From IMG/VR virus record IMGVR_UViG_3300040809_000525, positions 1 through 23,678 of that record: a stretch of DNA of 23,678 nucleotides; one strand, written 5' to 3'. Of the stretch, positions 1,547-14,079 are shown in pieces. The stretch comes from a virus. Both the position numbers and the translations under genes were made by a program. The stretch's first letter is position 1. Every line of letters begins with the position of its first letter. The notes under the pieces were generated by a model. It did no database searches. It was not told the DNA's origin and saw nothing but the letters and a program-made list of their open reading frames with translations.

Positions 1547-4500
1547 ATGAGCATTAAAGGTAGTTCTTTTAACAATGTAGATAATAGACTACGTAATTTC
1601 AGAAAACTGGGGGCCAATAGTAGTTATAGTGATGCCTTATCTGGCATTTCAACTATTAGTTCGGTTGTAATTAATGATGCAACTATTTTTAATGCAAGAC
1701 TTTACATAGCATCTGGAATAGGTCTTTATAAAACTTTTAATTCTACTGATAATTTGATGATTGAATCACCATCTGTAATTGATGGTAATTTTACTTGTGT
1801 AGAAAATAAAAATGGAATTTTGTTAGCAGGAACAAATGATGGAAAATTATATTATAGTAGTAATGGAGACCAATTTACTGAAGTAACTGCTGGATTAAAT
1901 GTATCTAGTATTAATTGGGGGTCCGCTAGAATCTGGTCTATAGAGTATGGTCAAGGACTCTATGTTGTGGCTGGAGCAAGTCGTCTTGCATACTCTAGTG
2001 ACTTGGTTAACTGGACTAATGCAAGATTTGGTAGAAGTAGAGTTTCTTCTAAACCAGCAGTTTCAACTTTTGATAAAAATTCAAGTCTTGCTACATGGCA
2101 ACCTGATGATTATAATTACAAAATAATTTTTAATCAAGAAGACTCTAAATGGTATCTTCCAAACCGTGGAAATATTTTATTTACTGATAATATTACTAAT
2201 GCGGAAAGTTGGCAACAAGTATCAGATTCCGATTATTATAGAATTTTTGGCGAACAGTCGGATGCTACTCCCAGTAATCTTACAGGATTGTCTTATCCAT
2301 TAGCACCAGTTGCGGGAATTGCTCTAACTGATAAACTTGTAGCAATGAAGGGATATGGTGGTAGAACGAACTATTTTTATCAACCAGTAGCTTTTAGTAC
2401 CAGCACTTCATTTTCTTTAGATAGTAATATTGGAATGAAGTGGACTGAGTTTAAAGAACCCGACGGTAAGCCAATAAAAATTAAAGATTATTTTTCATCA
2501 TTTTCTCCAAATCATATTTCTGCTGGTCCAGATAATAAGAACATTATCACGGCACACCGCAATTCGGGAAATGGGTATTCTAGAGTTGCAATTACAACAG
2601 ATTTTGTAACATATACAAATTTGGGCCATGGTGCTTATCAAAGAGATTCATTTTTTGGTTATACTTCTGCGATGGTTTCTGGTTCTCAAGAAGACAATAC
2701 TGCCATATTCCAGAAGCCAGATATGGCAGTATTATATAATGCATACTTAAAAGGTGGAAATACAAATTATTATACCAACTATTCACCAGTAGCATCATCT
2801 TATAATGCTGGAAAAGATAAATGGGTAATTGCTTATGATTGGGGTGGTCAATCTGCGTATACACATAATTCCGTAGCAATTTCAACTGATGGTGGCACAT
2901 CATGGAAAGCAGCAGATCATGAAACTGAAAACTCAATCTTTAATAATTATACTTCTTATGTTTATTCTGGAGTAGGAAGCACCGATTATTATGTTTTGGG
3001 TAAGTATAATACAACTAATCGTTCATATGTAGAAGTATCCTATGATGGTGAAGACTGGTATTCTTCTGGTTTTGGGAATCCATCGTCACCCATTAACTGT
3101 TCTGGTGCCTCATATATGGTGTCTGGAATTTCTACATCTGGTAAATATTTTTCTGGATATGCTAATGGAAGTATATTTGCAACTGAGAATCCATATGTTA
3201 ATATTGACAGAGTTTCGATTCCAGTTAATCCAAATAACTCATTAGAACCAGATAGTCTTGTATTATGTCTTCCTTTGAATACTGCTAGAGATGTCAATGA
3301 TATTTCTGGTATCATGACTTCTTATAATGGAAGTTCTTTTAATAAAACTGTAACAAATAATAATAGTGTTTCAATCTCTTCCACAATCAGTAAGTATTAT
3401 GGTTCTAGTGCTTCTTTTAGTGGGGTAAGTCAAAATCTAACAGTACCAGCAAGTACAGATTTTACATTAGATGGTGAATTTACTGTAGAGTTTTGGATAT
3501 ATCTAAACACAATTGTTTTAGATAGTCAACATCCATCACCGATTACTTTTTCACAATCTGGAGGTAATAAGGGACAAATATATCTAAATGTTAGTAATAA
3601 TTATTTTAGTTTATGGAATGGTAGTTCAAATGTTGTAAATACAGGGAATAATTCGGTTACAACTGGAACATGGTATCATGTTGCTGTAACAAGAGATTCA
3701 TCAAACAATTGTAGAATATTTTTGGATGGTGTGCTAAAAGACACGGCATTAAGCACATTTACTTTTGGAAATGCAAGTGGGGATTTGAGAATTGGAAGTT
3801 TTAATGGAACAGGTGGAGATGTTAATGGTTACATGAATGACCTTCGTATCTATAAGGGATACGCAAAATATACAGAGAACTTTACTCTACCAAAACTTGC
3901 TGATTATTTCCAGTATCTGACATTCTCAGCACAACTGAATACTGTAAATCAAGAAAATTCATTAACCTATGTTAATACTTATGAGTTATCTGCTGGTATT
4001 GGAACCACAGCAACAATACTAACAAATACATCTGTAGGTACTGATAGAAACGCAACAAATAGTGCCGGTATTGCAACTTATCTTCACGATGTTAATGCTG
4101 GTATTGGGTCTACTGCAATTACAAGTACACTTTATGGTAACGCTGGATCCGCTACTACCATCGGAATCAGCACTTATAAGTTTGGTACATCAAGTGTTAG
4201 ATTTACTGGTGCTTCTAATAGTAGATTAACTGGACCATCTAATGCATTTGAAACGGATGATTTTACTATTTCATTATTCTACCATGCTCAAGGGTCGGGT
4301 CAAAATAATTATAACGCAATATACGACCAAAGACCAGCAGGAACAAATGGTGCTTATCCAACGATTTATTCTTATAATCAGGGACCGGTGAGATATTTTG
4401 TGTCAAGTGGAGACAGAATTACTGGCACCACAAATATGACAGTTGCAAGTGGATGGCATCATATTTGTATTCAAAGAAATTCTGGAGTTACAAGATTATT

Positions 4501-7500
4501 TGTTGATGGAACTCAAGAGGGATCGAGTTATAGTGATTCTAATAATTATGTCTCATCCACCATTGTCATGGGAGATTTTGTATTTTCAAACTCTTATAAT
4601 ATGAATGCAAATCTTGATGATTTGGTTATATGGAAAGGTGTTGCTAATTATGCTATTGGTGCTGGCAACACAATTCAGGTTCCAACATCTCAATATGATA
4701 TCAATACAGACCCAAATAGTTCATACGTTGTTATTTCATCAACATTTGAAGACACCCCAGTAGGTACTACAAATATTGCTTATGAAGCAAATGTTCCAAG
4801 GGGTATAGCACTCTTTAATGGTACAACTTCTGCTATCACTGGAACAGCAACGACTGCGTTTTATTTTGGAAAAGAAGATTATACAATTGAATGTTTCTAT
4901 TATAAAAACACAACCGATACATCAGATAATGAGTATCTATTTGATGGAAGAGTAGATAATAATACTCGTATTCGACCAACTGTTTATAGTTTACAAGCAA
5001 GTGGAGGTCCAGTTACATTTAATTTAAATGGTGCTGCTAGAATTTACGGGCAAAATATAGGAGGATCTGCTTTTGGATCTAGTGATGCTCTTGGAATTAC
5101 AACTGATCCAAGATTTGATTTACAAGGAAGAAGTAATCTAAACAAATGGAATCATATTGCTCTTTCTAGAAAGGATGGAATCACAAGACTCTATCAAAAC
5201 GGAAAGATACAGGGGACTTATACAGACACCAATAGTTATGATGGACCTGGAATGAGAATTGGAAACTATTGGAATGGTTCAAATGCTTTTAATGGTTATA
5301 TTCAAGATTTCCAGGTTTATAAAGGTTATGCGAAGTATTATCCTCAACAAAACTCACAAAATGATAAGGATAATTGGGTCGAATTGCTTAATACCACACC
5401 ACCATCTGCACTTTTAGTCACCTCATATGTACATTCAGTTAGAGGAATGGATGTAAAAGATGTGAATGGAGTTGATACTTTTGCATATGCTTGCAATAAA
5501 CATGTTGGAATAAGCACTAGAGTTATATCAAATCCAATTGGATATGGAAATACACTCAATACTAATGTCTTTTATAGCAATAGAGTCGTTGGTATTGGTA
5601 CAACGTCTAAAATAGGATCTTCATCGATAAAATTTGATGGTAATTCTTACTTATCAATTTACCCACAACCAGATGATTTAGATTTTTCAACTCGTGATTT
5701 TTCAATAGAATTTTGGGTATACTTTAATACTGTTGGAACTGTTGTGTTGTGGGATCAACGTCCAAATGTAAATGGATTTTATCCAATGATTTATACAAAT
5801 TCTGGTGTCTTGACCTATTATGTCAACACAGCAGCAAGAATCACTGGATCAACTTTAAGTACTGGTCAATGGTATCATATTGCCGTTGCAAGGACGAATG
5901 GCGTTACTAAAATGTTCTTGGATGGAACACAAGATGGTAGTAGTTATGTTGATGATAATGATTATTTTACATATCACCCAACAGCACGGTCATCTGGAGG
6001 ATTTAGTGCAATTGTAGGTGCTCAATATAACTATGCATCCAAACTAAATGGATTTATGAATGGACTGAGAGTTTATAATGGATATAATGCAGGATATTCT
6101 ACCAATTTTACACCTCCAACGTCTACATTGACAATTTCTGGTGATTCTACTGATGAAAAATTAAAAATACTTGCCAACTTTAATGTTGGAGATGGATATA
6201 ATGATTTACTTTCATATCAACATTATGGAAAAAGAACAGGAGTTAATTCCGGATTAACTACTTATAGTAGTGGTTTTTGGAATCAACCCGTATCTACTTA
6301 TACTGTATACTACCCTCAAGTTGGATTTGGAACTACATCAAAGTTTAATCAATCATCCGTTGCATTTAATGGAAATAATTACTTAACCTTTACCGACAAC
6401 AGAGGAAATAAATTTTCTAGAGGACCTGAAGATGATTTTTCTATGGAATTTTGGTTCTACTTGGAAACAGATGCAAATACAAAACAAACTATTTGGGATA
6501 GTAGACCAGCTGCTAATGGATTTTATTCTAGAATTTTTATAGATACAAATGGATTTTTGAATTATAGTGTTTATAGTAATAGTAGTGGATATGATGTACA
6601 AGATGGAGCTATCATAGTTGGTGTTACTACAATTACTGGTGGAACTTGGAATCATGTAAGTATTCAAAGAGATGAAAATGTAACAGCATTGTACTTAAAT
6701 GGTGTTCAAGAAGGACAATTGGCAGCTGATAGTATTTCATATTGGACTTCTGCTACTTCATCTAATCCCGCTTATCTTGGTTGTGATTATAACAAAGTAA
6801 ATTACCTAACAGGATCAATCGAAGATTTTAAAATATATAATGGTGCTGTTGGATATGGATTTACGGTTGGAATAAACACGGGATTACTAACCAATCCTGG
6901 TGTATCTACAATTACAGCTTCTCCAAATATAGATAAATGGGGAAATGGAAGTCTTAGCGTCAAAAGCAACACACATGTCAATTTTCCATCTACATCAGAG
7001 CCATGTTCTCTCAATGGAAAATATACGATAGAATTTTGGGCTTATTTTGACACTGTAGGTGCTATCATTACATATGGTGGGAGACGACAGAACAATACTG
7101 GTGGATTTATAGATGGTATTCAAATTAGAAGTGGACTTATTTTATTTGGATCTAATTATTCATATTTAAACGCAAGTCAAACCCCATACTCCACGAAGAC
7201 GATTCCTGCTTTTGCAACTGGTTCTTGGAATCATTATTGTCTCCAATATGATGGAAATGATGCTGTTTGGTCTATTGATGGTGTTGGAATTAGCACGTTT
7301 AACCTAGGTCAAAGAATTATACAAGTTTATCCAAAAAGAGTCTACATAGGTGGTGGCGGACTTCCAATATATAACTTTAGTGCAGGCACACAAGCTTATG
7401 TTTCAGACTTTGTATCTTATGCTGGTACATGTAAATATCCATCTGCCTTTGAAGGTTCTACTTTTTCTCCCCCAAGTTCTCAATATGACATTGAAACTGA

Positions 7501-10500
7501 TTCTTTAAAAAACTTTGTAAGTATAGCAGCAACATTTACTGGTTCAGAAGGATCTAATACACATAATTATTATAGAACAAAAAGATATACTAGTGTTCCT
7601 GCATCATCTCAAGTTGCATATGGGGATTCTAATTATAAAAATTTGGCTTTATTGTCAAACTTTAATGGAGATCTCACATATCATTCATATGGAGCAGAAG
7701 ATTATTTTTATCCTTTAGATTTAAGTTCTGTTGTTACTGGAAGTATAGTACAACTTCACAAATTTGATAATAAATTTGTAGCTCTTGGGGATTATGGTTT
7801 TGTCGGAGTTTCTTCTGATGGAAATTATTGGGATGTAGCTTCTAGAAGAGGAAGAGCCAACCTTACTTCAAGAACTCCCTCAGGAATAACTAGTTTCTTT
7901 ACACCAAACAATACTCAATTTTATGATATTGTTTCGATTGGGTCTACAATTGTTACCACTGCTCCAGGTGGTGTCACTCTATTTTCTGAAGACTCTGGTG
8001 CAGATGAGTTTAGAAAATCTTGGGTTGGAAACAGTTTAGTTCGTCCCAACAGTGCTAATATTTATTCAAATTCATTAAATGGTGGATACACTATCGCATA
8101 TAATCCTAACACACAAGAATGGTTGCGTAATGATAGGTATAGTTATACTTATACTGGATGGAGTAACTTATACAGCACATATTATGCAAAAGGAATGCCA
8201 AATGTTGGATTAGGAACAACGACTCCATATAATTGGACTAGTATTGGTCAAAGATTCTTTGGTTTGCTTGGTGAATCTGGAAAAACTATAAACAAAATTA
8301 AATATGAAGATAATAAGTGGATTCTTATTGGATCTGTTGCAACAGGATCAAGTTATTATAGAATAGGAATTGCAACAGATTTGCTTAATATTGATGATAA
8401 TATGAAATTGACATCATTCTCATCTAAGAAGTTTAAGGATATTCAATACGATCCTGATAAAGATGCTTTTATAATTACAAGTCAACAACCAGAAAATAGA
8501 AATTCTTTAGGAAAGGATATTCTTATTCAAGATATTGGATTTAATACAGTATATAATGATACACAAACTCAAAGACAGTTTATGGATGATAGATACCGTA
8601 GTGTTTCTGGATTTGGAGTTACTGATAGGGCTTTCTCTGGAAAATCCTATGTCCATAGTTTGCAATTTCCAATTAGCACTAGTCCATATCTATTGTATGA
8701 TCAAATTTCTCAACAACAAACTGGAAGAGGTCCATGGATAAAAAGTGCTAGAATAGAAGGATATTTTAAACCTGCTGTTGTTGGTATTCATACATTTAAA
8801 TTAGTCGGTAATAATCTTTGGACCAATAGCATGGAATTTTCCTTTGATGATATGGCAGCAACACTTGCTGGAACTCTAGATACATATACCACAGAATCAC
8901 TGGACACATCGACATATTATAGATTCTCTATTGATTCAAGATACTTGTGGAGTACTGGTGGACTTCAATATGCATCTCCAAATACTGATTTTACATATGA
9001 TGTTACTGGACTTGTTTTTGCTCAAGCTGGAGTTGGAACAACAGGAGCATTATTGAATGAAGTTCCATATTATGAATATGGAGATGTTATTACTAATCAA
9101 TATTCATCGACCGATGTAATTTACACCCATAAACCTTTAAATGGAACACTAAAAGGACCAGATGGATATGTTTTATACGGTGATAGAGGATTTGTTGGAT
9201 TTGGAACGAACTTAGAAAATATTCGTAATTTCAAGAGAGAATCATATAAATCAGTCAACAATCTAACATCAAGTGGAATAGGAACAGTAATTTATAATAT
9301 TTTTGGTACAAACAATATTATTTCTGGAATTTATACTGGTGGTAAATATGTTTTGTTTGATTCTGCTGGAACGTCAGGAATCTCCACAAATGGTGTGGAT
9401 TGGGAGTCTTCTAGTGTAAGTGAGGTAACGGCAGGTAATATTACATCTGTAGGAATTTCTTCATCTGGAAAAATTATTTTAGCTGGAAGTGATAATTTAG
9501 TTGGAATAACTACAGATTTTTCCACCTATACGGTTGGACATGCTACAACGTCTGTGACTGATGTAGATTTTGATGTTGTTTCTGGTGGTATTGCCGTTTC
9601 TGCTGCTTCTTCGGCATATGGTGGATCTAGCGTATTCTTCAATAATGCAGGTACATTAAAACTTAATACAAATCCTCTTTCCAATCTTGGAACTGGAGAC
9701 TTTACCATTGAAGGTTGGTTTAATGCTTTAGATGCTGGAAGCAGACATGTTATAAGTGCTGGTGGATATGGAAATGGCTACTCAGATCATTTAATTTATA
9801 GGACTAGCGGTACTTGGTATTATTATTCTACAACTGCTTCAGGATCTTGGAATACTGCCAGCGCACAATCATTCGGTGCTGTTGCGAATGACACTTGGGT
9901 TCATTTAGCAGTAGAGAAAAAAGGATCAACCTTTAGACTTTATAGAGATGGTGTTGGTGTAACTACATTTACAGCAAGTCCTTCATATTCTGGTGTGAGA
10001 CCACTTCGGATCAGTACGTATGATGATACTAATGCTCCTCATTATGGATATATTCAAGATTTTAGGATCTATACTAAAGCAAAATACAATTCCTCAGGAT
10101 CAGGAGTAGGAAACACATTTACTCCACCAACATCTTTTGTTGATGTACTATCAGATCCTGATTCTTCAAATGTTGCCGTAGCAGCATCATTCTCTGGTAC
10201 ATCTGGTTCAACTCCAGTATATGATAAATTTGGAAGGGTTTCTAACTTAAGTAGTATTCCTTCTAGTTCTACTGTAACTGCAGTTGGTGGAATTGGAACT
10301 GTGAATATGATAGGATTATCAAATGGAATTATCCATACAACTGATGATACGCTCGGAACCTCCTCAGCTCTATTTCCATATACCGATTCATATGCTGAAA
10401 ATACTCCATATCTTTCTTCTTACGGAGGTGTTCCTACATTATCATCTGCTCAAACTAAGTTCCAACCAACTAGTTTATATTTAAATGGTGGCGTTAATAT

Positions 10501-11272
10501 GAGAGTGAATTTGACTAATATTTTTACACTACAAAATGATTTCTGTATCGAATGGTGGTCATATTATACTGGTGGTAATACCATGGTGGAATACATTCAA
10601 TACAACACCGGTTTTATGATAAGAAGTAATGCATATTATGGTGATGGTAGTGGAGGATCTGCCAACACTTGGAATCATCATGCTGTTATTAGAAAAGGTG
10701 GAAGCAAATATTTCTATGTAAATGGAGTAAGTGCAGGTGCTGCTCCTTATCTTAGTGGTTCTAGTGGATATCTTCAAATTGGATCATCTTCACATACTAC
10801 GGGTCAATATGTATCTGGTTATATGTCGGACTTGGTTATAACTGTAGGAAACTCAAGGTACGATGTTACTGGTGGAGCATCCTTCACACCCCCAAGTGCT
10901 GCATACGATTCAAGCACTGATGCATATATTGATTATGTGGTACATTATTCAACATTCACTGGTGTTGATGGAACAACTGGATATCCAACTTATGCATCTG
11001 GACTAACAAGAGTTTATAGTCCAGATCCATTTGCAGGAAACCAGATTAATAAGATAGTTGGAATCGGATCTTATGTTGTTGGTATTGCTAGTAATGGATA
11101 CTATGCATATGCACGTCAAGATAATATTAATAAGTGGTATTCTGGTAAAATGGGAGATTCTGATTTAGTTGGAGTTACTGGTATAGGAATAAGTACTATT
11201 GGCATTTCTACAAATGCGTCTGTAGCAGCTATAAGTACTACTGGAAATATTTACATTTCTGGATTGGATTAA
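1547..11272 (+). CDS. Giant multi-LamG / propeller adhesin, probable tail fibre
   Basis: This 3241-residue protein is probably a virion adhesin binding host-surface glycans. From the N terminus: residues about 30-560 are sialidase/BNR-like, with repeated 'SSNG-D-F/W' turns such as YYSSNGDQFTEV and AISTDGGTSWKAA. Five LamG/concanavalin-like sandwiches follow at about 568-783, 878-1035, 1085-1265, 1353-1524 and 1598-1771, and a sixth at 1796-1975. They are recognised by FTVEFWIYL, TWYHVAVTRD, IFLDG and MNDLRIYKG-type strands. A second BNR-like stretch covers about 2060-2340, then a PA14-like segment (GYFKPAVVGIHTFKLVG) at 2390-2500 and a third BNR-like stretch at 2587-2682. LamG 7 (2691-2845), LamG 8 (2970-3117) and a Gly/Ile/Ser/Thr-rich tail complete it. 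Most LamG units end in a linker like FTPPSSxYDxxTD. No signal peptide is apparent. The ATG follows a weak GAGA-type ribosome site. It sits between a propeller fibre gene and a small acidic gene. Domain calls come from motif reading; the adhesin role is inferred. Confidence 0.8.
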   Translation: MSIKGSSFNNVDNRLRNFRKLGANSSYSDALSGISTISSVVINDATIFNARLYIASGIGLYKTFNSTDNLMIESPSVIDGNFTCVENKNGILLAGTNDGKLYYSSNGDQFTEVTAGLNVSSINWGSARIWSIEYGQGLYVVAGASRLAYSSDLVNWTNARFGRSRVSSKPAVSTFDKNSSLATWQPDDYNYKIIFNQEDSKWYLPNRGNILFTDNITNAESWQQVSDSDYYRIFGEQSDATPSNLTGLSYPLAPVAGIALTDKLVAMKGYGGRTNYFYQPVAFSTSTSFSLDSNIGMKWTEFKEPDGKPIKIKDYFSSFSPNHISAGPDNKNIITAHRNSGNGYSRVAITTDFVTYTNLGHGAYQRDSFFGYTSAMVSGSQEDNTAIFQKPDMAVLYNAYLKGGNTNYYTNYSPVASSYNAGKDKWVIAYDWGGQSAYTHNSVAISTDGGTSWKAADHETENSIFNNYTSYVYSGVGSTDYYVLGKYNTTNRSYVEVSYDGEDWYSSGFGNPSSPINCSGASYMVSGISTSGKYFSGYANGSIFATENPYVNIDRVSIPVNPNNSLEPDSLVLCLPLNTARDVNDISGIMTSYNGSSFNKTVTNNNSVSISSTISKYYGSSASFSGVSQNLTVPASTDFTLDGEFTVEFWIYLNTIVLDSQHPSPITFSQSGGNKGQIYLNVSNNYFSLWNGSSNVVNTGNNSVTTGTWYHVAVTRDSSNNCRIFLDGVLKDTALSTFTFGNASGDLRIGSFNGTGGDVNGYMNDLRIYKGYAKYTENFTLPKLADYFQYLTFSAQLNTVNQENSLTYVNTYELSAGIGTTATILTNTSVGTDRNATNSAGIATYLHDVNAGIGSTAITSTLYGNAGSATTIGISTYKFGTSSVRFTGASNSRLTGPSNAFETDDFTISLFYHAQGSGQNNYNAIYDQRPAGTNGAYPTIYSYNQGPVRYFVSSGDRITGTTNMTVASGWHHICIQRNSGVTRLFVDGTQEGSSYSDSNNYVSSTIVMGDFVFSNSYNMNANLDDLVIWKGVANYAIGAGNTIQVPTSQYDINTDPNSSYVVISSTFEDTPVGTTNIAYEANVPRGIALFNGTTSAITGTATTAFYFGKEDYTIECFYYKNTTDTSDNEYLFDGRVDNNTRIRPTVYSLQASGGPVTFNLNGAARIYGQNIGGSAFGSSDALGITTDPRFDLQGRSNLNKWNHIALSRKDGITRLYQNGKIQGTYTDTNSYDGPGMRIGNYWNGSNAFNGYIQDFQVYKGYAKYYPQQNSQNDKDNWVELLNTTPPSALLVTSYVHSVRGMDVKDVNGVDTFAYACNKHVGISTRVISNPIGYGNTLNTNVFYSNRVVGIGTTSKIGSSSIKFDGNSYLSIYPQPDDLDFSTRDFSIEFWVYFNTVGTVVLWDQRPNVNGFYPMIYTNSGVLTYYVNTAARITGSTLSTGQWYHIAVARTNGVTKMFLDGTQDGSSYVDDNDYFTYHPTARSSGGFSAIVGAQYNYASKLNGFMNGLRVYNGYNAGYSTNFTPPTSTLTISGDSTDEKLKILANFNVGDGYNDLLSYQHYGKRTGVNSGLTTYSSGFWNQPVSTYTVYYPQVGFGTTSKFNQSSVAFNGNNYLTFTDNRGNKFSRGPEDDFSMEFWFYLETDANTKQTIWDSRPAANGFYSRIFIDTNGFLNYSVYSNSSGYDVQDGAIIVGVTTITGGTWNHVSIQRDENVTALYLNGVQEGQLAADSISYWTSATSSNPAYLGCDYNKVNYLTGSIEDFKIYNGAVGYGFTVGINTGLLTNPGVSTITASPNIDKWGNGSLSVKSNTHVNFPSTSEPCSLNGKYTIEFWAYFDTVGAIITYGGRRQNNTGGFIDGIQIRSGLILFGSNYSYLNASQTPYSTKTIPAFATGSWNHYCLQYDGNDAVWSIDGVGISTFNLGQRIIQVYPKRVYIGGGGLPIYNFSAGTQAYVSDFVSYAGTCKYPSAFEGSTFSPPSSQYDIETDSLKNFVSIAATFTGSEGSNTHNYYRTKRYTSVPASSQVAYGDSNYKNLALLSNFNGDLTYHSYGAEDYFYPLDLSSVVTGSIVQLHKFDNKFVALGDYGFVGVSSDGNYWDVASRRGRANLTSRTPSGITSFFTPNNTQFYDIVSIGSTIVTTAPGGVTLFSEDSGADEFRKSWVGNSLVRPNSANIYSNSLNGGYTIAYNPNTQEWLRNDRYSYTYTGWSNLYSTYYAKGMPNVGLGTTTPYNWTSIGQRFFGLLGESGKTINKIKYEDNKWILIGSVATGSSYYRIGIATDLLNIDDNMKLTSFSSKKFKDIQYDPDKDAFIITSQQPENRNSLGKDILIQDIGFNTVYNDTQTQRQFMDDRYRSVSGFGVTDRAFSGKSYVHSLQFPISTSPYLLYDQISQQQTGRGPWIKSARIEGYFKPAVVGIHTFKLVGNNLWTNSMEFSFDDMAATLAGTLDTYTTESLDTSTYYRFSIDSRYLWSTGGLQYASPNTDFTYDVTGLVFAQAGVGTTGALLNEVPYYEYGDVITNQYSSTDVIYTHKPLNGTLKGPDGYVLYGDRGFVGFGTNLENIRNFKRESYKSVNNLTSSGIGTVIYNIFGTNNIISGIYTGGKYVLFDSAGTSGISTNGVDWESSSVSEVTAGNITSVGISSSGKIILAGSDNLVGITTDFSTYTVGHATTSVTDVDFDVVSGGIAVSAASSAYGGSSVFFNNAGTLKLNTNPLSNLGTGDFTIEGWFNALDAGSRHVISAGGYGNGYSDHLIYRTSGTWYYYSTTASGSWNTASAQSFGAVANDTWVHLAVEKKGSTFRLYRDGVGVTTFTASPSYSGVRPLRISTYDDTNAPHYGYIQDFRIYTKAKYNSSGSGVGNTFTPPTSFVDVLSDPDSSNVAVAASFSGTSGSTPVYDKFGRVSNLSSIPSSSTVTAVGGIGTVNMIGLSNGIIHTTDDTLGTSSALFPYTDSYAENTPYLSSYGGVPTLSSAQTKFQPTSLYLNGGVNMRVNLTNIFTLQNDFCIEWWSYYTGGNTMVEYIQYNTGFMIRSNAYYGDGSGGSANTWNHHAVIRKGGSKYFYVNGVSAGAAPYLSGSSGYLQIGSSSHTTGQYVSGYMSDLVITVGNSRYDVTGGASFTPPSAAYDSSTDAYIDYVVHYSTFTGVDGTTGYPTYASGLTRVYSPDPFAGNQINKIVGIGSYVVGIASNGYYAYARQDNINKWYSGKMGDSDLVGVTGIGISTIGISTNASVAAISTTGNIYISGLD

Positions 11273-13117: not shown

Positions 13118-13377
13118 TGGGAAAGGGTATCAATATTATTCATACAAATTGTGACCCAATTGCTGCTGATGACAAGAGTCTTCCAAGAGATTCTTATTTG
13201 GTGACTTATGGCGATAATGAGCAGCAAAAATATGATGTTGTCCAAGGACTTCAATCTGATATCTTTGATCATTATTGGGATAAGTATCGTGATGTGAGAG
13301 GATTGAAATGGACAGAGGGAACAATTAATCCTAAGATGTGGGGTTATAAACCTTCTGATTCCAAAAAGAAGAAGTAA
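13117..13377 (+). CDS. Hypothetical cyanophage protein
   Basis: 86 residues from the ATG that overlaps the previous stop as TGATG, which I prefer to the upstream in-frame ATG at 13099 inside the previous gene. It is Trp/Tyr/Asp-rich (FDHYWDKYRDVRGLKW) with a C terminus PKMWGYKPSDSKKKK that is strongly basic. No enzyme motif, membrane helix or cysteine pair is seen. The coupling to the DUF6433-like gene suggests co-expression and perhaps a shared complex. Function unknown. Confidence 0.75.
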   Translation: MGKGINIIHTNCDPIAADDKSLPRDSYLVTYGDNEQQKYDVVQGLQSDIFDHYWDKYRDVRGLKWTEGTINPKMWGYKPSDSKKKK

Positions 13378-13430
13378 TTTCCCAGATCGTCGGAAAAAAC
13401 TCCGGTAAAATTTTTGACTCGTAGGGTCGC

Positions 13431-13459
13431 TTGACTAAATACCAATAACGAGGTACAAT
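13431..13459 (+). promoter_or_regulatory. Sigma70 promoter of the riboswitch cassette, with internal late motif
   Basis: TTGACT (13431-13436), 17 bases, then TACAAT (13454-13459). RNA is predicted to start about seven bases on, near 13466, immediately before CGTTCATCC. The spacer also contains ACTAAATA at 13434-13441, a weaker match to the late consensus, so the same site may fire early and late. The -10 lies inside a small perfect hairpin sequence, GAGGTACAATACCTC (13450-13464), which would not be in the early RNA. Confidence 0.7.
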
Positions 13460-13476
13460 ACCTCTACGTTCATCCT

Positions 13477-13662
13477 ATGATATTACCTCTACTGCTGGCA
13501 CTGTCCTCTCCAAAACCATCATTACTTCTTACTTGTGAGCAGTTTGATTGGTTGGTAGAAAGAACTTTGGATACTAAGTCTCTTTCTCTTCCACAGAAAG
13601 TAGACTTTATTCAGAGTTATTCTAAATGGACAGATCCCTCATGTTTTGAGGTAAAGGAATAG
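13477..13662 (+). CDS. Small protein encoded inside a riboswitch loop
   Basis: 61 residues. It opens with a short hydrophobic stretch (MILPLLLALSS) that may be a membrane anchor or weak signal, then LLLTCEQFDWLVERT and a C-terminal KWTDPSCFE; cysteines are at residues 20 and 56. Small cyanophage proteins with a similar LLTC...TDPxC pattern are familiar, but their function is unknown. From the predicted RNA start the leader is only about 11 bases and contains no Shine-Dalgarno, so translation would be nearly leaderless on the early transcript. The ATG overlaps TCCTAT and the TAG stop overlaps ATAGGA, two segments that can pair as a stem of the riboswitch. Coding status is likely but not proven. 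Confidence 0.6.
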   Translation: MILPLLLALSSPKPSLLLTCEQFDWLVERTLDTKSLSLPQKVDFIQSYSKWTDPSCFEVKE

Positions 13663-13746
13663 GACGCAAGTAGGACGACGCGCAACGGATCCGTTGATTC
13701 GCTATTCGCAAATAGCGAACGCAAACGCCGCCCGAAGGAACGGGAT
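13663..13746 (+). promoter_or_regulatory. Glutamine riboswitch, Downstream-peptide/glnA type
   Basis: The conserved blocks GACGCAAGTAGG (13663-13674) and CCCGAAGGAACG (13731-13742) match the glutamine-II riboswitch signature (GACGGAAGUAGG ... CCGAAGGAACG) described in cyanobacteria and cyanophages. Between them are a 14-base palindrome centred on GGATCC (13683-13696) and a 9-bp hairpin, TTCGCTATT/AATAGCGAA, with loop CGCA (13698-13719). The expected 5' arm CGTTC is found at 13467-13471, far upstream, with TCCTAT (13473-13478) pairing ATAGGA (13659-13664). A compact alternative uses CCGTT (13691-13695) with AACGG (13739-13743). The element precedes a short YRG-motif peptide, as the Downstream-peptide motif does. 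The core call is by recalled consensus; which 5' arm is used is open. Confidence 0.65.
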
Positions 13747-13777
13747 TTAACACATCTCATTTCTTTGGAGTAAAACC

Positions 13778-13924
13778 ATGTCCCAAGTTACTTATCGTGG
13801 CAACAAGTACGATACCGAACAACACAATGCTGAGGTTCTTGCCGAAGCAAAGCGTGTTCGTGAACAGGAGAACTTTGCTCTCATGTATCGTGGCGTAAAA
13901 GTCAATCGTACAATGGTAAAGTAA
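13778..13924 (+). CDS. Riboswitch-controlled YRG peptide (downstream peptide)
   Basis: 48 residues, strongly supported by GGAG at 13767-13770, seven bases before the ATG. The peptide has two copies of a Tyr-Arg-Gly motif: VTYRGNKYDTE near the N terminus and LMYRGVKVNR near the C terminus, with a charged helical middle (AEVLAEAKRVREQENF). Short proteins with (T/M)YRG motifs, resembling the DUF4278 style, are what follows this riboswitch class in cyanobacteria and cyanophages. In cyanobacteria a related riboswitch controls a glutamine-synthetase inactivating factor, so a role in adjusting host nitrogen metabolism is plausible but inferred. It is followed after one base by a membrane peptide gene. 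Confidence 0.8.
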   Translation: MSQVTYRGNKYDTEQHNAEVLAEAKRVREQENFALMYRGVKVNRTMVK

Positions 13925-13925
13925 A

Positions 13926-14015
13926 ATGATTGCAGGAATAGTGGGTTCATTCACTGCATTTTCTGCAGCATTTATGCTTCTAATCTATGCGGAAGTTAAA
14001 TTACTGAGTAAGTAA
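13926..14015 (+). CDS. 29-residue membrane peptide
   Basis: Only 29 residues, starting one base after the stop of the YRG peptide, which suggests translation by reinitiation. Almost the whole peptide is one hydrophobic helix (IVGSFTAFSAAFMLLIY) followed by a short charged end (AEVKLLSK). A terminator begins six bases after its stop, making it the last gene of the cassette. Single-helix miniproteins of this size often modulate a larger membrane complex, but nothing in the sequence names a partner. The tight placement between a real gene and a terminator favours genuine coding. Confidence 0.6.
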   Translation: MIAGIVGSFTAFSAAFMLLIYAEVKLLSK

Positions 14016-14020
14016 GATAC

Positions 14021-14049
14021 AGAGGGTTCTTGACGAACCCTCTTTTTTT
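14021..14049 (+). terminator. Rho-independent terminator
   Basis: AGAGGGTTC, loop TTGAC, GAACCCTCT, followed by a run of T to 14049. The 9-bp perfect stem and U-tract form a textbook intrinsic terminator closing the riboswitch cassette. Confidence 0.9.
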
Positions 14050-14058
14050 GTGTAAAAT
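14030..14058 (+). promoter_or_regulatory. Sigma70 promoter embedded in the terminator
   Basis: TTGACG (14030-14035) begins in the terminator loop, followed by 17 bases and TAAAAT (14053-14058). RNA would start near 14065, just after the ATG at 14062, so it decides in favour of the in-frame ATG at 14080 for the next gene. Confidence 0.65.
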
Positions 14059-14079
14059 GAGATGAGAGAACACTATCTT

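Follow-up and report, generated by a model that had tools for sequence, protein, structure and literature searches.

Riboswitches are normally read as leaders lying 5′ of the genes they control, and open reading frames (ORFs), for example endonuclease genes, are found lodged in the peripheral loops of self-splicing introns. Glutamine riboswitches are known from marine phages (PMC9964418, PMC9004378, PMC9602691), tandem glnA RNAs have been described (PMC2864571), and a review places cyanobacterial IF17 (gifB) under the control of a glutamine riboswitch and describes inactivating-factor synthesis as stimulated by high glutamine (PMC7760959). A translated ORF inside an aptamer has been reported for the M. 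tuberculosis metE B12 riboswitch, where the regulatory upstream ORF (uORF) uMetE2, 48 nt long with a UUG start, lies in the P9-P10 extension and its translation lowers MetE (PMC11260477, 2024); an Mbox with a small upstream ORF has also been described (PMC12810186).

The locus analyzed here lies in a 23,678-nt stretch of virus DNA (IMG/VR record IMGVR_UViG_3300040809_000525), hereafter the window. It resembles the glnA-type RNA of Rfam family RF01739 in its order of CGUUCA, P2, ACGNAAGUA, P3, and GAAGGAACG upstream of a small gene and differs from it in a nested second half inside P3, a C for a G in the core of the window element, and a gene that forms the loop of P2. The same CGUUCA-P2 start is found in RF01704 (glutamine-II/Downstream-peptide), but the peptide of that family is described as lying downstream and not in a loop (PMC2864571). 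Like metE/uMetE2, the locus has a short ORF inside an aptamer, recognized here from sequence alone; unlike the metE uORF, the phage ORFs encode conserved proteins of about 50 to 70 aa, start within a stem, and occupy two loops in many phages. As with intron-loop ORFs, a protein gene sits in the loop of a structured RNA, but the proteins encoded in the two loops, P2 and P2′, matched no endonuclease family in PHROG and Pfam searches. Searches of open PMC papers turned up no description of conserved genes lying within the stems and loops of a riboswitch. The original prediction knew of no description of such an arrangement; a short translated ORF within an aptamer is known from metE (PMC11260477).

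Results

The gene-bearing element in the window

Rechecking the window sequence reproduced the motifs, coordinates, and 61-codon frame of the original prediction. On the plus strand, the P1 5′ strand CGTTC (13467–13471), which is constant in relatives, is followed by the P2 5′ strand TCCTAT (13473–13478), and the string CGTTCATCC occupies 13467–13475. The embedded ORF (13477–13662), assigned by translation and protein similarity to what we call family A, has 61 codons running from ATG at 13477 to TAG at 13660–13662. Its start codon has its first two bases inside the P2 5′ strand, as TCCTAT(G), and its stop codon lies inside the P2 3′ strand ATAGGA (13659–13664), bearing out the proposal that the gene starts in one arm and stops in the other. 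Pairing tests described below place an extension of P2 within the coding sequence, with TTACCTC (13483–13489) as the 5′ strand and GAGGTAA (13648–13654) as the 3′ strand. There follow on the plus strand the core joining segment CGCAAGTA (13665–13672; glnA consensus CGGAAGUA), the P3 5′ strand GGACGACG (13673–13680), with two-sided changes at four of six P3 pairs in relatives, the inner hairpin Pi, CAACG-GATC-CGTTG (13683–13696), which is GAACG...CGTTC in most relatives, the inner hairpin P2′ (13698–13719), a second insertion site in other phages, the P3 3′ strand CGCCGCCC (13726–13733), placed by paired-change alignment, and the P1 3′ strand GAACG (13738–13742), placed by sequence. The core strings GACGCAAGTAGG and CCCGAAGGAACG are at 13663 and 13731, and a nested second half, CGTTG-P2′-ACGCAA, spans 13692–13725. 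The core, P2, and the ORF as P2 loop had been recognized in the original prediction, which missed the nested half, the short P2 hairpin that ORF-less relatives have at this position, and the existence of two insertion sites. In the window, the centroid fold contained P2 and its coding-end extension and lacked P1 (z −4.8), and single-sequence folding did not recover P1 across the insert. Elsewhere in the window, a 3241-codon frame (1547–11272) has segments that look alike by eye and is perhaps a tail or fibre protein.

A sigma-70-type promoter, TTGACT and TACAAT separated by 17 nt (13431–13459, plus strand; 10 of 12 matches), predicts transcription from about 13466, one base 5′ of P1. A −10 box with no more than one mismatch stood shortly 5′ of CGTTCA in 213 of 238 distinct upstream regions (20% in shuffles), its end mostly 7, 8, or 10 nt from CGTTCA, and a −35 box with at most two mismatches was also present in 177 of the 238 (4% in shuffles). 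Because the predicted start falls at P1, the outer AUG would lie only about 11 to 14 nt from it, which leaves no room for a Shine-Dalgarno sequence; in the window, this leader would be about 11 nt long and have none. The −10 box of the window is surrounded by an inverted repeat, GAGGTA CAA TACCTC (13450–13464), whose arms change in step across loci (GGGTA/TACCC, AGGTC/GACCT, TAGAG/CTCTA, and TATGG/CCATA in other phages); the longest inverted-repeat arm in the last 30 nt was 5 to 6 in 176 of the 238 regions and most often 3 to 4 in shuffles.

Downstream on the plus strand, a gene for a 48-aa YRG protein near DUF4278 (13778–13924) is preceded by GGAG at 13767–13770. Its match to DUF4278 scored 24.1 bits against a cut-off of 25.3, and a YRG protein is encoded in some frame of the downstream 195 nt in 247 of 252 elements. 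An intrinsic-terminator-like hairpin with a T run (14021–14043, plus strand) probably ends the transcription unit. At 14021–14058, a promoter-like TTGACG...TAAAAT is overlapped by this hairpin, so termination of this unit and initiation of the following one may be interleaved.

Relationship to known glutamine riboswitch families

No Rfam family reached its gathering score within the window. The original prediction had named RF01739 and RF01704 as the models to search, and neither match reached gathering: at relaxed thresholds, RF01739 matched only the inner half, at 13690–13746, with 16.5 bits (gathering 35), and RF01704 gave 13.8 bits (gathering 33). The window is therefore not filed as a member of RF01739. 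Matches to GOLLD, miRNA, and snoRNA models at the same relaxed thresholds were rejected as chance-level. The window core CGCAAGUA has C for the G of glnA CGGAAGUA, and, set against the RF01739 core GACGGAAGUAGG ... CCGAAGG, the window strings GACGCAAGTAGG and CCCGAAGG are one base off consensus. The P2 hairpin that directly follows CGUUCA in RF01739 is present, with two-sided pair changes in both short and ORF-bearing elements.

RF01739 gathering was reached by three of 20 related sources (L179, L052, and L021), the other 17 falling below it. The match covered the whole L179 element, P2 included, at 45.3 bits and the whole L052 element at 42.9 bits, and whole-element matches to L004 (32.9 bits) and L006 (31.6 bits) were just under the cut-off. 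On the local inner fold, the model gave 35.5 bits for L021 and about 33 bits for L001, L002, and L012; as a local inner fold suffices for an RF01739 match in some relatives, the remote 5′ half may not be needed. RF01704 matched the outer halves of L251, L252, and L547 at 26 to 29 bits (gathering 33). A covariance model, R1, was built from 31 of 59 short-P2 elements hand-picked for variety, with L097 left out because its parse reached too far 5′; it detected the core in the window with 80.1 bits (E 1.3e-18). The 180-nt insert is absent from the model, so R1 puts the 5′ strands of P1 and P2 just upstream of the core, and its match is evidence for the core only. Judged from its sequence, the window RNA is built like RF01739 and probably works like it.

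ORFs in the outer P2 loop

When used as a query, the 61-aa protein identified 34 IMG/VR loci. The sequence CGTTCATC(C/T)(C/T) stood directly 5′ of the ATG in all 34, and the frame ended in TA(G/A)GACGCAAGTAGG in all 30 assessable loci, L018, L038, L039, and L040 being cut by a contig end; both counts support the earlier reading of the gene as the loop of a riboswitch-like element. In core pattern scans, P2 was 10 to 40 nt or 186 to 228 nt long, apart from a single ORF-less P2 of 438 nt. L103, whose long P2 insert is not an ORF, was excluded from the tests of arms and stems, and L096 (1174 nt) was rejected as a long-P2 element, being a mis-parse inside another gene. The outer ORFs fall into families A (the window family, 60 to 62 aa), B (59 aa), and C (66 to 69 aa) and are broken in L243 and L446. 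The family C frame mostly stops 5′ of the P2 3′ strand, and six P2 pairs form in 45 of 45 distinct family C ends.

Profile searches provided 160 listed relatives (80 of 214 matches and 80 of 271). The riboswitch halves flank the ORF in 148 of these under a strict pattern test and in 145 under a looser one. Among the 12 that fail the strict test, six are truncated by the 3′ contig end and one by the 5′ end, L319 is free-standing, and four belong to family C (L363, L367, L368, and L413). The latter four keep the gene beside a decayed riboswitch: CGTTC reads AGTTC in them, and where the 3′ half would be there is a terminator-like hairpin. Such loss, taken with the weak Rfam scores and the one-base change in the core, could mean that ORF insertion destroyed sensing in general and that only sequence remnants persist. 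We regard this as highly improbable, given that the 148 loci with both halves were found through their proteins, regardless of the RNA, and that the CGTTC motif has become AGTTC in the four loci that lost the 3′ half. Two further loci hold remnant frames, of five family C codons in the 24-nt P2 of L179 and of eight codons, broken, in a shortened P2′ of L504, which suggests that the gene was lost and the loop reverted to a hairpin.

Short-P2 relatives and the nested fold

BLASTN of positions 13370–14070 against phage genomes matched 12 records, all from Synechococcus phages, of which six were examined. ORF-less relatives have a compact RNA at the same place with a P2 hairpin of 10 to 40 nt. Its 5′ half reads CGTTCA, P2, ACG(C/G)AA, P3 strand, (G/C)AACG, and a 3- to 5-nt loop, and its 3′ half reads CGTT(C/G)A, P2′, ACGCAAA, P3 strand, and GGAACG, followed by the small gene. 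The database record of S-CREM1 labels its copy a glnA riboswitch; this copy scored 33.5 bits on the inner half in an Rfam 15 scan, and a score of 44.0 bits is given in PMC9964418. Among 59 short P2 hairpins chosen without any pairing requirement, 233 of 236 cells were paired at the first four positions, compared with a mean of 176 and a maximum of 190 for shuffled partners. Over 155 short-outer-hairpin elements, the third P2 pair failed in nine and the fourth in 20.

In an alignment of 31 hand-picked elements, a nested fold paired 97.3% of cells and had 12 pairs with two-sided changes, none of them in P1; a tandem fold had seven, all in the P2 and P2′ hairpins common to both folds. The closing pair of Pi, for which no complementarity was demanded, was G-C in 268, C-G in 11, and mismatched in none of 279 distinct contexts. 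A plain tandem in which each half has its own P1 fits most elements no worse than the nested fold but was rejected, as it breaks one pair per P1 in elements of the CAACG/CGTTG type (four of 139 elements, L097 and L103 left out; 11 of 279 contexts). The outer CGTTC and GAACG are of the usual form in the four parsed C-G elements (window type, L181, S-CREM2, and S-PRM1), as nesting predicts, the parser having demanded both strings, and GAACG was found in 141 of 141 elements under a relaxed parse. Both P1 strands, CGTTC and GAACG, are present in the window, and their constancy in parsed elements is partly parser-imposed, so covariation says nothing on P1. The inner matches to RF01739 leave a tandem-like inner fold possible. 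From the sequences, the element appears to combine a canonical half with a circularly permuted half that shares its P3.

A second site in the inner loop and its spread among phages

The sequences support the same design at a second position, the P2′ loop of the inner half. The family B protein, besides its outer occurrence, matches 41 phage records, and it lay in the P2′ loop in all 14 phage regions examined (S-RSM4, S-RIM8, S-RIM32, S-RIM50, S-WAM1, S-WAM2, S-H9-1, S-H25, S-B64, S-SCSM1, S-PRM1, S-M1, QB2, and WH25-B), flanked 5′ by GGAACGGAGCGTTCATCCT or a variant and 3′ by GGACGCA(A/C)ACGA(C/T)TGAAGGAACG. A scan for inner starts returned 113 distinct contexts holding several different small proteins; the 3′ core followed within 900 nt in 103, and the contig end cuts the other 10.

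A parse of 544 loci that demanded the core strings and Pi and no P2 or P2′ stem yielded 270 distinct elements from 454. An insert of at least 140 nt, nearly always a small ORF, was present in 204 of the 270. Inserts were in P2′ only in 96 elements, in P2 only in 82, in both in 24, and in neither in 59, with P2 not assessable in eight and one intermediate case; these proportions are shaped by the search patterns, and without the core scan demanding GGAT, neither site was filled in seven of 197. Both sites are filled in P-SSM4, P-HM2, S-TIM5, and P-RSM4 and the inner site in S-CAM8, S-SSM2, and S-CAM9. One outer protein matches 54 phage records, four of them examined, and inner proteins match 311 (two examined), seven (one examined), and 11 records (P-SSM4 and P-RSM4 among those examined). 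None of the 21 regions examined from cultured phages that contain an embedded ORF has a riboswitch annotation; the ORFs themselves are either unlisted or entered as hypothetical or unknown proteins, in many cases with a start codon placed further downstream. The P-SSM4 locus (L545) also has a manA RNA (RF01745, 184 bits) at 616–801, about 100 bases upstream of its double-ORF element. The joint profile of families A and B found no relative among genome contigs. A DNA pattern gave six matches there, two in Paenibacillus that are unlike the element and four resembling it, in a Saprospiraceae MAG, Nonlabens, and two Euryarchaeota MAG contigs, which are presumably phage sequence.

Fit between the embedded genes and the RNA

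Of 98 distinct outer proteins, 91 share one offset for their ATG. Counted from the closing A of P2, outer stop codons fall from −16 to +7 nt in 103 of 105 inserts, the other two being broken frames, and inner stops fall from −4 to +14 nt of the corresponding A in 121 of 122 ORFs. The stop in 76 inner elements is a TGA 11 nt past the closing A, within the core, so the core itself encodes the last residues of the inner protein; the C-terminal ends are DAND in 66 and DAHD in 14 of 113 distinct proteins. This placement of starts and stops in stems and core suggests that the RNA may act either as a folded sensor or as a template for translation.

The first four P2 pairs formed in 105, 105, 105, and 98 of 105 outer inserts and the first four P2′ pairs in 122, 122, 121, and 120 of 122 inner inserts, some scans having fixed one arm (the P2 3′ arm or the P2′ 5′ arm). 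In protein-found loci only, where no arm was selected, the counts were 44, 44, 44, and 41 of 44 for the outer site and 27, 27, 27, and 26 of 27 for the inner site, with inner arms TCCT/AGGA, TCTA/TAGA, and TCCC/GGGA. The TCCTAT/ATAGGA pairing first proposed for the window recurs in compensated form in relatives as TCTTAT/ATAAGA, TCCGAT/ATCGGA, TCTCAC/GTGAGA, and TCCCAT/TTGGGA. Uncompensated change, which the original prediction held would refute the arrangement, is mild: the fourth pair fails in seven of 105 outer inserts, three of them TCCCAT/ATAGGA. Permuted partners reached the agreement observed among distinct 4-bp arm pairs in one of 2000 trials for the outer site and 223 of 2000 for the inner site, the latter not significant, and among distinct 6-bp pairs in four and none of 2000, respectively.

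Pairing continues beyond the arms into the insert ends (first 32 and last 36 nt), where it is better than in base-shuffled ends. Mean duplex energies were −23.5 vs. −13.8 kcal/mol shuffled for family A outer inserts, −16.1 vs. −9.1 for family B inner inserts, and −17.2 vs. −13.5 for family C outer inserts. When partners were swapped within a group, the true mean was never matched (0 of 2000 in each of five groups), although the difference in family C was small (−17.2 vs. −16.7). In the coding-end extension, family B has one third-codon position with double changes in 16 of 66, and family C has no extension pair with double changes. The shuffle tests ignore relatedness, and the loci are related, so their counts are not independent.

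GGAG stands just 5′ of the inner start in 102 of 122 inner inserts and in none of 74 short inner hairpins (147 minus 73 from the scan demanding GGAT); among profile-found loci, the counts were 15 of 27 with an inner insert and none of 14 without. It is absent in 20 of the 122, 12 of these among the 27 profile-found. The GGAG in Pi and the stop codons in the cores, together with inner halves that can match RF01739 alone and a P1 whose pairing is putative, its strands being constant in parsed elements, would also fit a small operon with repeated intergenic signals, in which the riboswitch-like pieces are start, stop, or processing signals or local hairpins and no long-range P1 or P2 forms. We consider such an operon improbable: the P2 arms are complementary across the ORF, in family C too, where the 3′ arm lies mostly past the stop (all six P2 pairs form in 45 of 45), and the nested fold as a whole is backed by P3 and Pi.

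The embedded proteins

The window protein has a hydrophobic N terminus, Cys20, and Cys56 and a weak PHROG match to phrog_13397 (E 3.8e-05). Families A and B align, B members being 26 to 31% identical to the window protein, with C20, W25, L26, T52, P54, C56, and F57 invariant; the family C profile and the A/B profile did not match each other. When BLAST matches are clustered by single linkage with no correction for composition, 197 of 209 proteins fall together, which we do not take to show that all are homologous. At least two cysteines occur in 208 of 209 embedded proteins of at least 35 aa, and the start is on average hydrophobic in both BLAST clusters. In PHROGs, family B corresponds to phrog_13397 and others to phrog_504 and phrog_6471, with no function assigned. 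An AlphaFold model of the window protein (pLDDT 84.9) has helices at residues 3–9, 20–32, and 38–49 and matched no PDB structure at an E value of 0.001 or below.

The embedded ORFs are under purifying selection. Median dN/dS in equal-length groups was 0.16 and 0.33 in family A, 0.23 and 0.08 in family B, and 0.28, 0.57, and 0.17 in family C, that is, 0.08 to 0.33 in six of seven length groups; the family C group at 0.57 probably mixes unaligned indels.

A third insertion site is occupied in L032 and L033, which also have family A in P2: the Pi loop holds a 201-aa homing-endonuclease-like ORF (phrog_314, E 1.1e-06; no Pfam match) that reads on through the inner half and, in L033, lies between model matches at 3153–3262 and 3734–3814. 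This ORF, the several different proteins found in the same loops, and the persistence of family C in the four loci where the riboswitch decayed would fit genes that merely hitch-hike, using insertion-tolerant loops and the promoter of the riboswitch for a function of their own without ligand control, RNA and protein both being functional. We hold this to be unlikely, since the outer proteins nearly all share one start site in P2, pairing runs into the coding ends, stops are supplied by the core, and the Shine-Dalgarno-like loop occurs only with inner ORFs. These features point to a fitting of gene to RNA beyond passive lodging.

Discussion

The sequence data support the arrangement and the fact that it is conserved, a P2 that pairs across the gene and extends into both ends of the coding sequence, and purifying selection on the embedded ORFs. 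On this basis, we favor, with modest confidence, the reading of the locus as a gene-bearing riboswitch, presumably glutamine-sensing, whose folding would toggle between the embedded and the downstream gene. We infer glutamine as the ligand, translation of the ORFs, mutual exclusion, and the direction of control. In the proposed mechanism, the glnA-type RNA would begin at the first transcribed bases, with the gene held in the P2 loop, its start codon in the P2 5′ strand and its stop in the 3′ strand. At high glutamine, the aptamer would fold, burying the start codon in P2 and turning the embedded gene off, and the downstream YRG gene would be on. At low glutamine, ribosomes would start at the 5′-proximal AUG of the outer ORF, or at GGAG and AUG of the inner ORF, and melt P2 and the core, so that the embedded protein would be made instead. 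A single RNA would thus switch between two gene products.

We tentatively propose, as a possibility somewhat short of an even chance, that these loci of marine T4-like phages represent a class of glutamine-sensing, gene-bearing riboswitches, each with at most two loop genes whose start codons lie in stems and whose stop codons lie in stems or the binding core, in which ligand-dependent folding and translation exclude each other and one transcript toggles between embedded and downstream proteins. Here the sensor itself houses conserved genes, at two different loops and in many cultured and uncultured phages, with coding ends and RNA stems that fit each other. Short genes and riboswitches can in this way hide each other from annotation. 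If folding and translation are indeed exclusive, the element would give these phages a compact switch, one RNA with two outputs, linked to the nitrogen status of the host.
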